Under the pieces are notes generated by a model. It made no database searches, was not told the DNA's origin, and saw nothing but the letters and a program-made list of their open reading frames with translations. 62,376 bases of DNA from Clostridiales bacterium. GTDB taxonomy: Bacteria > Bacillota > Clostridia > Christensenellales > Pumilibacteraceae. The stretch's first letter is position 1. Every line of letters begins with the position of its first letter. Of the stretch, positions 39,989-44,270 are shown one piece after another. The stretch spans positions 1 through 62,376 of the forward strand of contig JAIDCZ010000023.1 in NCBI GenBank assembly GCA_029055565.1, given 5' to 3'. The position numbers and the translations under genes were made by a program.

Positions 39989-42900
39989 CTACATTACGAG
40001 TGTGGGTAGTTCGGTATCGGTAGCTTTCCAAACGGCTGTATCGAAGCCGAGATTTTGACTGAGCCATTCAGTCAAACAAAGGTCGGTGTATAGTGTGGTT
40101 TGTTGGTTTTCGTAAACGCCGCCTTGTGCATCTGAGTCGGTAAACGTGATTTTGCCCGCAGTATATAGTGCGGTTGCGATACTGCCGTCTGTACCTACGC
40201 CGCTTATCAGCCCAACACCGCGTTCGTCATACAACGTAATGCTCGCGTCGGCTTTTTTAAATTCGTATATTATATTGCCGGTAGTGAAACAGTAGTCGAT
40301 ACTCGCATTATACGCGTTGGAGGCTATAAGTCCTAAGTATATATAAGCGCTCGGGTTTATTTTCGCAGTATTGGTTATATTGATATTTACGTCTGAATAG
40401 CAGTGCGTTATTCTGCCGTTTATTTTTACGGTCGGCGATGCGATTTCGCCGTTTTCGTCGTGCATATAACCGCCCGATACGATACCGGCAAGCCCGCCCA
40501 AGCTAACGTTGCCGCCGGAAGCGTCGTTTACGTTGAGTGTTGCGTTGTACGCGGCGTAGCAGTTTTCCATTTCGCCTACAAGCGATCCGACCAAGCCGCC
40601 GAAGTATCCCATGCCTTTATTGAGAAAATTCATGGTTTGAGTAGTTATAGCATAGCACTTTTCCAATTTGTGCGTAGATTCGTAACGGTACGCTATCGCA
40701 CCCGCGCCAAAACCGCGAATGTTTTCGTCATGAATATCGTCGCCGGCGCTACCGCGAACGTAATCGTACTGCTCTATGCCGACGTTTTTTATTTGTCCGT
40801 CAAGAACGAATCCGAACAGTCCGAATATTTCGTAATCTCCATCCGAGCGTGCAAACACCGGATTTTTAATTACGTGTCCGCCTCCGTCAAACACTCCGGT
40901 AAACTTCCTTTTTACGCCGATAGGGTAAAGCTTTTTGCCTACGCAGTCAACGTCCGCAGTCAATACGTAGTGTGCGCTATTGCCGCCGTCAACGTTATCT
41001 ACGTAAAAGTGCAAGTCTGCAAGTTCGTCACAGTTGTTAATTTTGTACGGATTATCTTTTGTGCCGTTGCCGTCGTAATCGCTTACCCATTTGGCTTTGA
41101 ATATAATTTGCTCGCCGTCCGTGGTCGTTAGATTTTTGACTTTACTCTTATCGGCATAAACGTCGTCGCCGTATTCCCAGCCGACAAACGAGTAGCCGAT
41201 TTTGACGAAATTATTTTGGGGTAGTGTAAGCGCGGTGTCGTACACGCATGAAACATCTTGCATCGTACCGTTGCCACCGTTGCCGTCGAACTTGATGGTG
41301 TAATTAACGTACTCCCACATGTCAAACAGTCGAACGAATACTTTGGTGCCTTTGTAGTATCCGTCAAACATTAAATCCGAAACGGTTTCACCATCGGCAT
41401 AAGTGATTTGCGGATTGGAATCGAAGTTTTTCCAGCCTACAAAACGTTTGCCGGGGTTGAATTGAGCCAGACCCAGTTCGGCGACGAGCGGTAGGGTATA
41501 GCGCTGTTTGCCGGAAAGCTCTACTTCAAAGAAATCCCGCCCAAGCTGTAAAGTATAATCACCCGATACCCATGTCGGTTCGGCGTATATGGTACAGCCT
41601 TCGATCGTGCCGGCGTATTCTATATCGCAATTGATAACCGTGCCGTCATTAAGGTATATATGCCAACCGTCGAATGCGAACGGCACCCGCGTGGGAGTTG
41701 TGCCGTTAAACGGGTCGACGCCGTAAATGCAATCGTAGTATTTATAAGTCGTTCCGGTGTTTGTGCCGTATTTGACGCCGTTAAACATAATTTCGGGATC
41801 ATTGAACAAGACCTTTATTGTGAATTTAATCGCTTCCCATTTCGGTATAAGCTCTATAGTATCACCGTTTTTGGCGGTAAGTTTTTTTACGTCCGCTCCA
41901 AGACCGTACGTCTTATCGTTATGGACCCAACCGGTTTGTTTGTAACCGGTGCGTGTGAATATTGAGTTTTTCAGTACAAACGATTTGTCGTACGCGTAGC
42001 TTTCCGGCTCGGTAGTCGTGTTTTCGTATTTATATATTACGTTATATACGATTGGCGTCCAATTAGCCGTTACGGTTTGGACTGGGGAGCTGTCTGGAAC
42101 CGGAATCGTATCGTCTGCGTAATATATTTTGCCGTCAAACGACCAACCCGAAAATAAGTAGCCGGTACGCTCGAACTCGTTGTCGGGGAATATCAGTTCT
42201 TCGCCTACGTTGGCAGAAATATCTTGCATTTTTCCGGTGCTGCCGCTACCGCCGGAAAACTTGAATACTATACCGGTGTATTTAATTTTTCCGTATAGGC
42301 TGACGTCGCTCGTGGGCGATTGCGTAAAGTCAAATGGGGTTTGGAATGAGCTGTCGGCGTACCAGCCCAAAAATTCTGCGCCGTTAAGAGTAGGCTTGAG
42401 CGGCGGTATTTTTTCAAACAGCGGGGATACGTTGCGTATCGCATACAGAGAGTCGTCTACGTAGTATTTAACTTCATAGCGAACGCCGGCTTGCACGTAA
42501 TAATCCGTTACCGATAGATTTACGTTTGATTTGACGCCTTTAACTGTATTTGAGGGTACTGACAAATTCATGTAATCTATATTACCTACGTCTATACCGG
42601 CGGTTGTCATGCCCACTACGCGCCCATAAACGTCCACCAATACGCCGCCGCTGTTGCCGTGCGTAATATTGACCGTGGACTGAATATAGTTTACTCCGTC
42701 AATACTGTAAGACGATTTCGATACAAGCCCCTCGGTTAGCGTGCTGTCTTGGATACCGAGGATAAACGACTGAGGAAAGCCTATTGCATAAACCTTGTCG
42801 CCGGTCTTTACGCCGTCGCTGTTTGCAAACGTGACGGACTTAGAGCTTGGCACTGCCACATGAATAAGCGCTACGTCGCGCACGTTGTCTACGCCGAGGA

Positions 42901-43528
42901 TTTTGTCTACAACGTACGTTTGGCCGTTGCTTAGCGTGACCTTTGCGGATTTCAGTCCGTCGACAACATGAAAATTGGTGACGGCTGTGCCGGTGCTGTT
43001 AATAAAGAATCCGGAACCGCCTACCGTATCGTTTTGTGTTTCCACCTCTATGTAAAACACCGAAGGATTTACTTTTTGATAAATTTCGTTGGCAGACAAA
43101 GCTTTTGGCGTATTTTTGCGCGAAACGAGTATTGGCACGAGCACGGCTGCAAAAGCAATGATAGCCGCCATAACAGAGATTACGGTAATATAAATCGGCT
43201 TTAACCGCTTGGATTTTACGGCTGTCGATGCTGACAGCGTTTGCGCCGCCGCGGTCGCTTGATTGGGCGGTGTGGCAACATGCGGTTGCGGTGTAGGTAT
43301 GGATTGGCTCGGTGTGGGCGCGGAGTCGTCTGCCAAACGCATAAATTCGTCCATGGAAACGGCAAATACGGCGCACATATTTTCTACGCCGTCTATGTCC
43401 GGCATGTTTACGCCGTTTTCCCACTTGCTGACGGTCTGTGGCGTAACGTTCAGTTTTTCTGCAAGCTGTGCTTGCGTCATGTTTGCGGTCTTGCGCAGAG
43501 TTTTTATTGCTTTGCCGTAATTCTTCAT
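39989..43528 (-). CDS. XRE helix-turn-helix, membrane span, HtrA-like protease, InlB repeats and GLUG-like domain in one protein
   Basis: 1179 residues from ATG 43528 (GGGAG upstream). Residues 7-62 are an XRE/Cro helix-turn-helix (T-Q-A-Q-L-A-E-K-L then T-V-S-K-W-E). A Pro/Ala linker follows, then one membrane span (112-134). 145-330 is a trypsin-like S1C/HtrA domain with an intact triad: His187 (N-F-H-V-V), Asp218 (R-D-V-A-L), Ser293 (H-G-N-S-G-G). From 370 to about 860 lie several InlB/Listeria-Bacteroides repeats (G-Y-x-F-x-G-W). The end is a GLUG-like beta-helix (D-N-P-Y-K-I, F-D-G-G-G-H-V-I). The topology puts the DNA-binding domain inside and protease and repeats outside, so it could be a one-protein signalling device. 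Confidence 0.9.
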   Translation of the reverse strand: MKNYGKAIKTLRKTANMTQAQLAEKLNVTPQTVSKWENGVNMPDIDGVENMCAVFAVSMDEFMRLADDSAPTPSQSIPTPQPHVATPPNQATAAAQTLSASTAVKSKRLKPIYITVISVMAAIIAFAAVLVPILVSRKNTPKALSANEIYQKVNPSVFYIEVETQNDTVGGSGFFINSTGTAVTNFHVVDGLKSAKVTLSNGQTYVVDKILGVDNVRDVALIHVAVPSSKSVTFANSDGVKTGDKVYAIGFPQSFILGIQDSTLTEGLVSKSSYSIDGVNYIQSTVNITHGNSGGVLVDVYGRVVGMTTAGIDVGNIDYMNLSVPSNTVKGVKSNVNLSVTDYYVQAGVRYEVKYYVDDSLYAIRNVSPLFEKIPPLKPTLNGAEFLGWYADSSFQTPFDFTQSPTSDVSLYGKIKYTGIVFKFSGGSGSTGKMQDISANVGEELIFPDNEFERTGYLFSGWSFDGKIYYADDTIPVPDSSPVQTVTANWTPIVYNVIYKYENTTTEPESYAYDKSFVLKNSIFTRTGYKQTGWVHNDKTYGLGADVKKLTAKNGDTIELIPKWEAIKFTIKVLFNDPEIMFNGVKYGTNTGTTYKYYDCIYGVDPFNGTTPTRVPFAFDGWHIYLNDGTVINCDIEYAGTIEGCTIYAEPTWVSGDYTLQLGRDFFEVELSGKQRYTLPLVAELGLAQFNPGKRFVGWKNFDSNPQITYADGETVSDLMFDGYYKGTKVFVRLFDMWEYVNYTIKFDGNGGNGTMQDVSCVYDTALTLPQNNFVKIGYSFVGWEYGDDVYADKSKVKNLTTTDGEQIIFKAKWVSDYDGNGTKDNPYKINNCDELADLHFYVDNVDGGNSAHYVLTADVDCVGKKLYPIGVKRKFTGVFDGGGHVIKNPVFARSDGDYEIFGLFGFVLDGQIKNVGIEQYDYVRGSAGDDIHDENIRGFGAGAIAYRYESTHKLEKCYAITTQTMNFLNKGMGYFGGLVGSLVGEMENCYAAYNATLNVNDASGGNVSLGGLAGIVSGGYMHDENGEIASPTVKINGRITHCYSDVNINITNTAKINPSAYIYLGLIASNAYNASIDYCFTTGNIIYEFKKADASITLYDERGVGLISGVGTDGSIATALYTAGKITFTDSDAQGGVYENQQTTLYTDLCLTEWLSQNLGFDTAVWKATDTELPTLVM

Positions 43529-43573: not shown

Positions 43574-43602
43574 ATTTTAACATACTGTATTCCAAATTGC
43601 AA
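43574..43602 (-). promoter_or_regulatory. Promoter of the XRE-protease gene
   Basis: Minus strand TTGCAA (43602-43597) and TAAAAT (43579-43574), 17-bp spacer. It lies inside the inserted segment, so the gene moved with its promoter. Confidence 0.65.
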
Positions 43603-43658
43603 TGGCAATAGCTAACCGAATAAGCAATATTGCTCTCTAAAACGGTTATAACGCTATG

Positions 43659-43707
43659 ACGACTTCATTTAAATACTTTTATGCTATATATTCGTTTGAG
43701 TTTGCGG
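43659..43707. repeat. 49-bp direct repeat, right copy
   Basis: Identical to 39891-39939; contains the -35 region of the kinase promoter. Confidence 0.9.
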
Positions 43708-43724
43708 GGAGAATGTGGTATAAT
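43696..43724 (+). promoter_or_regulatory. Promoter of the polynucleotide kinase gene
   Basis: TTGAGT (43696-43701) and TATAAT (43719-43724), 17-bp spacer. In the left repeat copy the same boxes are only 15 bp apart and the -10 is TATAAA. Confidence 0.6.
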
Positions 43725-43745
43725 GCTACCGAGGTGCTCAAAGCA

Positions 43746-44270
43746 ATGGATAAATTTACTATAGATATACCCGAGTTTTGCCTTGTGGCTTTGGTTGGTG
43801 CGACGTCGGCGGGCAAGAGCAGTTTTGCCAAGCGGCATTTTAAGCCGACCGAAACGTTGTCCTCCGACTTTTTTCGGGCAATGATATGCGACGACGAAAA
43901 CGAACAAAGTATATCGGGCGACGCGTTCGAGTTGCTTTACGACGCTTTGAACAAGCGGCTTAAAAACGGCAAGCTTACCGTAGTCGACGCGACGAGCGTG
44001 CAAAAAAGCGCGCGCACTACGCTTTTGAATATCGCCCAAAAGCATAACGCACGCACTGCGGCGATCGTTCTTAATCCGCCGGAGGACGTTTTGCATGCGC
44101 GCAACACCGCGCGGCCGGATAGGCATATTCCCGACGGCGTGGTTCGCGAACATTACCGCGAGCTTATGGACAGCATTGCAAGCCTAAATACCGAAGGCTT
44201 CGACTTCGTGTATATTCTTAACTCGCTCGACCAAATAGACAACGCGCAGATAGTCCGCACCAAGCGATAA
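43746..44270 (+). CDS. Stand-alone Pnkp-type polynucleotide 5'-kinase
   Basis: 174 residues from ATG 43746 (GAGGTG upstream; earlier in-frame ATG lies before the promoter). Walker A G-A-T-S-A-G-K-S-S at 18-26, then S-S-D-F-F-R, D-D-E-N-E-Q-S, L-T-V-V-D-A-T-S-V-Q and a C-terminal F-V-Y-I-L-N-S. This closely follows the N-terminal kinase domain of bacterial Pnkp of the Clostridium thermocellum type, which phosphorylates 5'-OH RNA or DNA ends. The phosphatase and ligase domains and the Hen1 partner are absent. It may repair RNA ends with separate partners. Confidence 0.82.
   Translation: MDKFTIDIPEFCLVALVGATSAGKSSFAKRHFKPTETLSSDFFRAMICDDENEQSISGDAFELLYDALNKRLKNGKLTVVDATSVQKSARTTLLNIAQKHNARTAAIVLNPPEDVLHARNTARPDRHIPDGVVREHYRELMDSIASLNTEGFDFVYILNSLDQIDNAQIVRTKR

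Follow-up and report, generated by a model that had tools for sequence, protein, structure and literature searches.

The window analysed here is the whole 62,376-nucleotide contig JAIDCZ010000023.1 of a Clostridiales bacterium draft genome (GCA_029055565.1; 1.64 Mb, 35 contigs, 76% complete), and in its interior it carries a reverse-strand gene whose product combines, in this order, an XRE-type DNA-binding domain, one membrane span, an S1C-type protease, InlB repeats and a weak GLUG-like end. From comparison with its relatives we think it reasonably likely that the gene product is both a single-pass transmembrane transcription regulator and a surface protein, that it belongs in most homologues to a two-gene cassette, and that its chief target is its own operon. 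We regard control of its own production by such a surface protein as probable, because relatives keep the DNA-binding end and a probable binding site for it even when the protease is dead. The main text of Demey et al. (2023, PMC10269533) counts more than 50,000 transmembrane regulators, of which an extremely low number have been tested experimentally. In the family described here there are a probable DNA target, versions of the protease that are naturally active or dead, and a partner gene, so that experiments can address directly how an outer event reaches DNA across a single membrane span.

The gene is a single intact frame of 1179 codons, from the ATG at 43528 to the stop at 39989-39991 with no internal stop, as an earlier note made from the DNA letters alone had read it. 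The XRE domain, the single span and the intact protease triad which that note had described were all found again (Table 1), and in the alignment His187, Asp218 and Ser293 fall on the triad residues of the 14 other family members that have an intact one. A single-sequence structure model is confident of the XRE fold over residues 1-70 (block pLDDT 79-92) and is usable for this part only, the protease part having a mean pLDDT of 41. Pfam places Trypsin_2 at residues 171-307 (E 2e-23), NCBIfam ranks HtrA/Deg-type models top for the protease part, all far under their cut-offs, and the closest solved chains are DegP-like; no PDZ domain was matched by Pfam in the window protein or in five relatives scanned. 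As for the surface repeats proposed earlier, the InlB-type repeats stood (Flg_new, E 9e-19, two stretches), whereas the GLUG-like end stayed below the Glug cut-off (E 0.005, 17.6 bits against 20.5). The end of one homologue (L125) matches Glug above the cut-off, and we consider the GLUG-like label right but unproven for the window protein. A separate protein encoded in the same genome (locus L002) has a protease match to the query at 31-32% identity.

The full-span fusion with the same order of parts is found in 21 of 309 genomes of f29, another family of the window's order, as one gene each (profile E-values of about 1e-61 to 1e-180; 21 is a lower bound, with at most seven candidates scored per genome). 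The profile was built from the window protein and the proteins of three f29 genomes (G343, G297 and G430), themselves first found with the window protein alone. Residues 1-346 were searched, at differing thresholds, in 101 relatives and in 74 family, 396 order and 391 class genomes, with five candidates scored per genome in the order and class samples; besides the window, full-span matches came from the order sample only, in the same three f29 genomes. Within the window's family (74 genomes, E 1e-12 or better) these residues gave no second fusion, and in 20 genomes of its genus the full-length query found no full-length homologue except the window itself, the nearest protein being the protease-less L039. 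The 391 class genomes gave protease-only relatives at E 1e-18 or better, a threshold at which a distant fusion could be missed, and a scan of a contig collection that possibly does not cover the window's own genome gave only XRE matches, in four Lachnospiraceae records.

The window protein and the 21 f29 proteins, 22 members in all, were aligned, including two (L175 and L188) whose genes run off contig ends. Their protease domains form one group with support of 100/99 in a tree of 70 proteases, and the distances between their XRE domains correlate with those between their proteases (Mantel r 0.38, as high in 46 of 5000 permutations). Because 21 other genomes share the order, the proteases form one group and the distances correlate, we rule out an assembly join for the family and hold it very unlikely in the window copy, in agreement with the earlier note, which had described a membrane-spanning DNA-binding protein and had allowed that it might prove to be two joined genes. 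That note had also allowed that homologues might lack the helix-turn-helix or the span; both are kept in one polypeptide in 22 of 22 members. Outside the fused group, ten S1C proteases (L126-L134 and L140) are among the top class-sample scores against the window protein; they are secreted, their N-terminal parts resemble SLH or copper-amine-oxidase-type domains by eye, and the 70-protease tree does not show them as the sister group of the fused 22.

The catalytic triad is intact in 15 of the 22 members, window included, and altered in seven, reading Ser-Asp-Ser in L125, Ser-Asp-Lys in L184, Ser-Asn-Lys in L185 and L189, Ser-Asn-Arg in L186, Ser-Gly-Arg in L187 and Asn-Asp-Lys in L191. In the 70-row tree the altered members are two clades at an unresolved fork; a 26-row tree separates all seven from the other rows by a single branch (95/96), but it comes with the warning that L125 and L191, both on long branches, meet there. 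The statement that catalysis was lost at least twice was withdrawn, since the 26-row tree puts the seven together; we count one or two losses of catalysis, with no return of it in the seven genomes. Among intact-triad members the XRE domain has a mean pairwise identity of 0.60 and among altered ones of 0.61; the corresponding figures are 0.85 and 0.89 for the recognition helix and 0.62 and 0.43 for the protease. For the L190/L188 pair, dN/dS is 0.06 for XRE domain and protease alike (dS of about 1), and for the L177/L178 pair the values are 0.18 (protease) and 0.17 (the region that follows), the XRE domain being unchanged. The distance from the span to a GFF motif of the protease is 30-39 residues in 22 of 22 members. 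Lysine and arginine flanking the span are richer on the N-terminal side in 17 members, equal in three and poorer in two, a bias that on the whole agrees with an inner XRE domain.

A protein of the window's own genus, L039, has the XRE domain (36 of 70 residues identical), the span, the repeats and the end, and no protease match; its outer part is 27% identical to the part of the window protein after the protease over 761 columns. Another protein, L138 (genome G381, another family of the order), has the layout XRE, span, degenerate protease and InlB and was matched in the order sample at residues 3-276 with 30% identity; it was left out of the counts over 22 members, lying outside their group on a very long branch. 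Among 20 regions chosen partly for long frames, we also found eight further large proteins with an XRE domain, one span and other outer parts, three of which were domain-scanned. L047, a reverse-strand reading frame of 652 residues, joins two XRE domains and one span to BspA-type leucine-rich repeats and an M23 peptidase, a second layout of XRE, span and outer peptidase in the window's family. L043 (841 residues) has a double XRE domain, a span and a weak BspA-type repeat match below the cut-off, and L045 (635 residues) has an XRE domain, a span, TPR, an InlB repeat and RCC1-like repeats; in this group the XRE-span kit occurs with several surface modules.

Upstream of the f29 genes we found a dyad, TTCAACYNNNRGTTGAG or a variant of it, in 21 of 21 cases (best match with 0-3 mismatches, 11 of 21 perfect). 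It ends 31-33 bp ahead of the -10 hexamer in 20 of these and 20 bp ahead of it in L123, and by the pattern used a further half-site lies 20-21 bp upstream in 19. An extended -10 element stands before 20 of the 21 genes, of which 19 have a best -35 match of 2-4 positions out of 6, the other (L183) matching 5 of 6. The perfect dyad occurs in 23 of the 309 f29 genomes, one copy each. Eleven of these are among the 21 gene-bearing genomes, each time with the single copy before the fused gene; the other 12 are among 288 gene-free genomes, about the level of a reversed-pattern control (10 of 309), and those sites have no extended -10 within the next 60 bases, no half-site and no XRE frame nearby. At a tolerance of one mismatch there were 62 rows in the 21 gene-bearing genomes, 16 at the gene and 46 elsewhere, with 33 in the reversed-pattern control, and the promoter geometry was seen in none of 17 off-target sites inspected out of the 46. 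No regulon is evident from these data, because perfect sites in gene-bearing genomes stand only at the gene and the off-target sites inspected are without promoter geometry; a weak one is possible.

The form of the dyad also varies with a residue of the recognition helix. Residue 30 in window numbering, which lies in this helix, is tyrosine in 13 f29 proteins and phenylalanine, serine or alanine in eight, the latter representing about five lineages as counted from the 70-row tree; a perfect dyad goes with 11 of the 13 and with none of the eight. Members L184, L185, L186 and L189, diverged and carrying Tyr30, keep perfect dyads, which argues that overall divergence is not the whole cause of site variation. 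Ahead of L039 stands the site TTCTAC-N5-GGTTAG, first spotted by eye, with the arms of the L190 site and 33 bp before the -10 element (0 of 20000 shuffles). We dropped the idea that all XRE-span proteins share one operator after running the f29 operator matrix over nine non-f29 loci, of which L138, L040, L042, L043, L045, L046, L088 and L039 have no site above 9.5 bits and L047 has one of 11.4 bits. In the window, the 9-mer TTCGGTTAG, which is the right end of the candidate operator ATTGCTTATTCGGTTAG, is common to the window gene and L039 at 32 and 33 bp from the -10 element, respectively (55 of 20000 shuffles). Binding of the own promoter is well supported for the homologues, if indirectly, and is only suggestive for the window protein.

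Directly downstream of the regulator, a membrane protein of about 155 residues is encoded in 16 of 19 testable f29 loci, that is those with sequence past the regulator stop, and at L039; it is missing at L125, L189 and L190. As a rule its gene overlaps the regulator gene or starts within about 10 bp of it, and the N-terminal part of the protein is soluble, with 2-3 spans predicted in most cases (one in L039 at the threshold used). It is present at five of seven altered-triad loci, including L184, where a profile finds the frame open, and at 11 of 12 intact-triad loci. Neither Pfam nor NCBIfam gave a match over cut-off (six and five members scanned, respectively), and we regard the partner as an apparently undescribed protein family. 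Both the partner and the own operon as the evident target go beyond the earlier note.

Of 297 f29 genomes, 33 have a homologue of the partner (E 1e-6), and in the window's family 23 of 74 have one (E 1e-3). The one in the window's own genome (G000:C8:14223-14702; locus L289, 5224-5706, plus strand) is divergent from a gene for a 73-residue XRE protein, an arrangement nearly identical to that of L307, and it may be that proteins of the partner family generally act together with XRE proteins. Among twenty partner loci without an adjoining intact fused gene, a subset of those found, a small XRE gene is divergent in three (L289, L304 and L307) and convergent in one (L297). At L290 (G1026:C2) and L291 (G1039:C144) the partner is preceded by a piece that shares 72% identity with the final ~375 residues of a fused protein, near contig ends where loss and cut are indistinguishable, and at L308 (G850:C1) it comes directly after a short XRE-span piece with a stop; these pieces are possible decay of the cassette. 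In G1004, which has a strong partner match, no piece of a fused gene was found nearby.

Taken together these data suggest a mechanism in which the inner XRE domain would bind the operator ahead of its own gene and the outer part, an S1C protease or pseudoprotease with InlB repeats and a GLUG-like end, would be displayed on the surface, with regulator and partner probably made from one transcript as a two-gene, co-component-like cassette in most homologues. Engagement of a ligand or substrate, crowding or processing on the outside would alter how the XRE domain dimerises or where it lies, and this change would tune transcription of the own cassette. With a spacing of 30-39 residues, the outer domain could pass its movement on to the span. 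We infer that the site is bound by this very protein, that input arrives through the outer domain and that the partner interacts with the regulator. For the homologues, activation rather than repression is suggested, because the site lies upstream of a promoter with an extended -10 and a poor -35. Operator, XRE domain, span and mostly the partner are the constant core, and the outer part varies from active protease to dead protease to no protease, a pattern that fits input by binding or by the state of the outer part, not by obligatory proteolysis. The earlier note had considered self-cleavage, and as a general mechanism this did not hold up: seven of 22 triads are altered, and L039, without protease, keeps XRE domain, operator and partner.

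We also propose, tentatively and with some doubt, that the displayed effector, be it a protease, a pseudoprotease or simply a set of adhesin-like repeats, itself acts as transcription factor on the gene that encodes it, the own operon being its only dedicated target and the outer module being exchangeable. The state or amount of the protein on the outside would then set its own synthesis, the outer module might lose catalysis, and operator, XRE domain and the new membrane partner would be the conserved core. If the own operon is the only target, this would be a one-gene feedback device for a surface protein and not a classical sensor.

Several points weigh against the proposed control of the own operon by the protein. 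The candidate operator of the window gene does not resemble the family operator arms significantly (4579 of 20000 shuffles), the window recognition helix reads VTPQTV where the family mostly has VSYQAV, and no partner match was found in the 900 bases downstream of the window gene. The cassette is patchy (21 of 309 genomes) and its parts are found alone, so it is dispensable. The association of residue 30 with the perfect dyad (Fisher 2.2e-4) is given too optimistic a value, since related genes are not independent. The match of L039 in 12 of 12 arm positions, besides having begun with the eye, is to L190, the most deviant f29 site, and the f29 matrix is silent near L039, as said above. L039 has Tyr30 yet a GGTTAG-type operator, which means that residue 30 alone does not set the site. 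A different DNA-binding protein could also be the binder of the dyad.

Of the other explanations, a one-component regulator that reports an outer event to other genes through degenerate sites, as CadC and ToxR do for their regulons, agrees with the domain logic of transmembrane transcription regulators as set out in the main text of PMC10269533, and with the slight excess of one-mismatch sites elsewhere over the control (46 against 33 rows in the 21 gene-bearing genomes). We nevertheless consider it unlikely, as all 11 perfect sites in gene-bearing genomes stand before the own gene and the inspected off-target sites (0 of 17) lack the promoter geometry. Distinctly less likely in our view is a proteolytic switch, in which the S1C domain cuts itself or a neighbour, intramembrane proteolysis follows and the XRE domain is freed, as in RsgI or DegS-RseA. 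RsgI of Clostridium thermocellum, which undergoes autocleavage and then cleavage by RseP (PMC12203970), lends the idea a precedent, and the 15 intact triads, window included, together with purifying selection on active proteases (dN/dS 0.06), speak for it; a possibly single triad loss (branch 95/96) would even leave one switch lineage and one derived lineage. The XRE part is kept, however, where the triad is altered (7 of 22) and where the protease is absent (L039), and an outside protease alone cannot free an inner domain.

It is highly improbable that the XRE domain is a mere inner anchor or protein-binding module of a surface protein with no transcription role. RodZ, built of a helix-turn-helix, a membrane span and an outer domain, works on cell shape, and the eight further large XRE proteins with one span and other outer parts would suit an anchor, but the domain here is HTH_3 and not the HTH_25 of RodZ, and there is a conserved operator that is associated with the recognition helix. 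The chance that the gene is an assembly error or a chance join of two genes seems negligible: the genome is an incomplete draft in 35 contigs and the 74 same-family genomes gave no second fused match at the threshold used, but 21 other genomes have the same order, the proteases form one group, XRE and protease distances are correlated and the gene is interior to its contig.

The features of the window gene and of its promoter region are collected in Table 1. The divergent neighbour (43656-44270, plus strand) encodes an AAA_33-type P-loop kinase-like protein, and its start faces the fused gene across the promoter region.

Table 1. Predicted parts of the fused gene and candidate elements ahead of it, in window coordinates.
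Feature	Position	Strand	Remarks
Complete fused gene with the five protein parts listed below, 1179 aa	39989..43528	-	
XRE helix-turn-helix, residues 8-62	43343..43507	-	Pfam HTH_3, E 1e-14; confident model fold
Single membrane span, residues ~112-136	43121..43195	-	Hydropathy 116-134; model helix 112-136
S1C-type protease, residues ~145-338, triad His187/Asp218/Ser293	42515..43096	-	No PDZ match
InlB/List_Bact-type repeat region, residues ~345-830	41039..42496	-	Pfam Flg_new
C-terminal GLUG-like region, residues ~831-1179	39992..41038	-	Glug E 0.005, below cut-off
Putative -10 element TAAAAT with upstream TG	43574..43579	-	Consensus match; such matches not above shuffles
Candidate operator ATTGCTTATTCGGTTAG	43612..43628	-	Ends 32 bp before the -10
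Perfect 12-bp palindrome AGCAATATTGCT, possible alternative binding site	43623..43634		Overlaps candidate operator

Among known systems, the transmembrane transcription regulators (TTRs) of Demey et al. (PMC10269533) are the closest in kind, having a DNA-binding domain and at least one membrane span per polypeptide, with the single-pass form the commonest according to the main text; the proteins described here likewise have the DNA-binding domain and the span in one polypeptide. They differ in having a protease or pseudoprotease and InlB/GLUG-like repeats as the outer part, and the words XRE, HTH_3, peptidase and trypsin are absent from the main text of that work (supplements not searched). 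No report of an XRE-protease fusion or regulator was among the open-licence literature matches listed. In the co-component systems VtrA/VtrC and ToxR/ToxS, as described by Kinch et al. (2022, PMC9214523), a membrane-tethered regulator is followed by a membrane-associated or periplasmic partner, often in overlapping frames. This gene order is found in the homologues (16 of 19 testable f29 loci, and L039) and not at the window gene, and in contrast to those systems the regulator here has an XRE domain and its partner is of an undescribed family. The winged-helix domain Trans_reg_C of CadC and ToxR is not among the ten Pfam families matched by the window protein.

The proteases of the HtrA/DegS (S1C) type are alike in the protease domain with a His-Asp-Ser triad in the window protein and differ in the PDZ domain, which was not matched here. 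RodZ has an inner helix-turn-helix, one span and an outer domain and works on cell shape; the domain here is of another family, and no HTH_25 match was found in the window protein or the relatives scanned. The RsgI protein of C. thermocellum (PMC12203970) shares an inner regulatory domain, one span, a periplasmic domain and an outer sensor, but it binds SigI and cuts itself, whereas the proteins here have a DNA-binding domain and an S1C fold with a triad that is altered in part of the family; the anti-sigma N-terminal domain of RsgI is not in the ten Pfam families or the best 25 of 26 NCBIfam rows of the window protein. Judged by its domains, the window protein is not an HtrA proper, a RodZ, a CadC/ToxR or an RsgI member, and it appears to be of a known kind, the TTRs, in a new variant that is accompanied in most homologues by a partner from a hitherto undescribed family.

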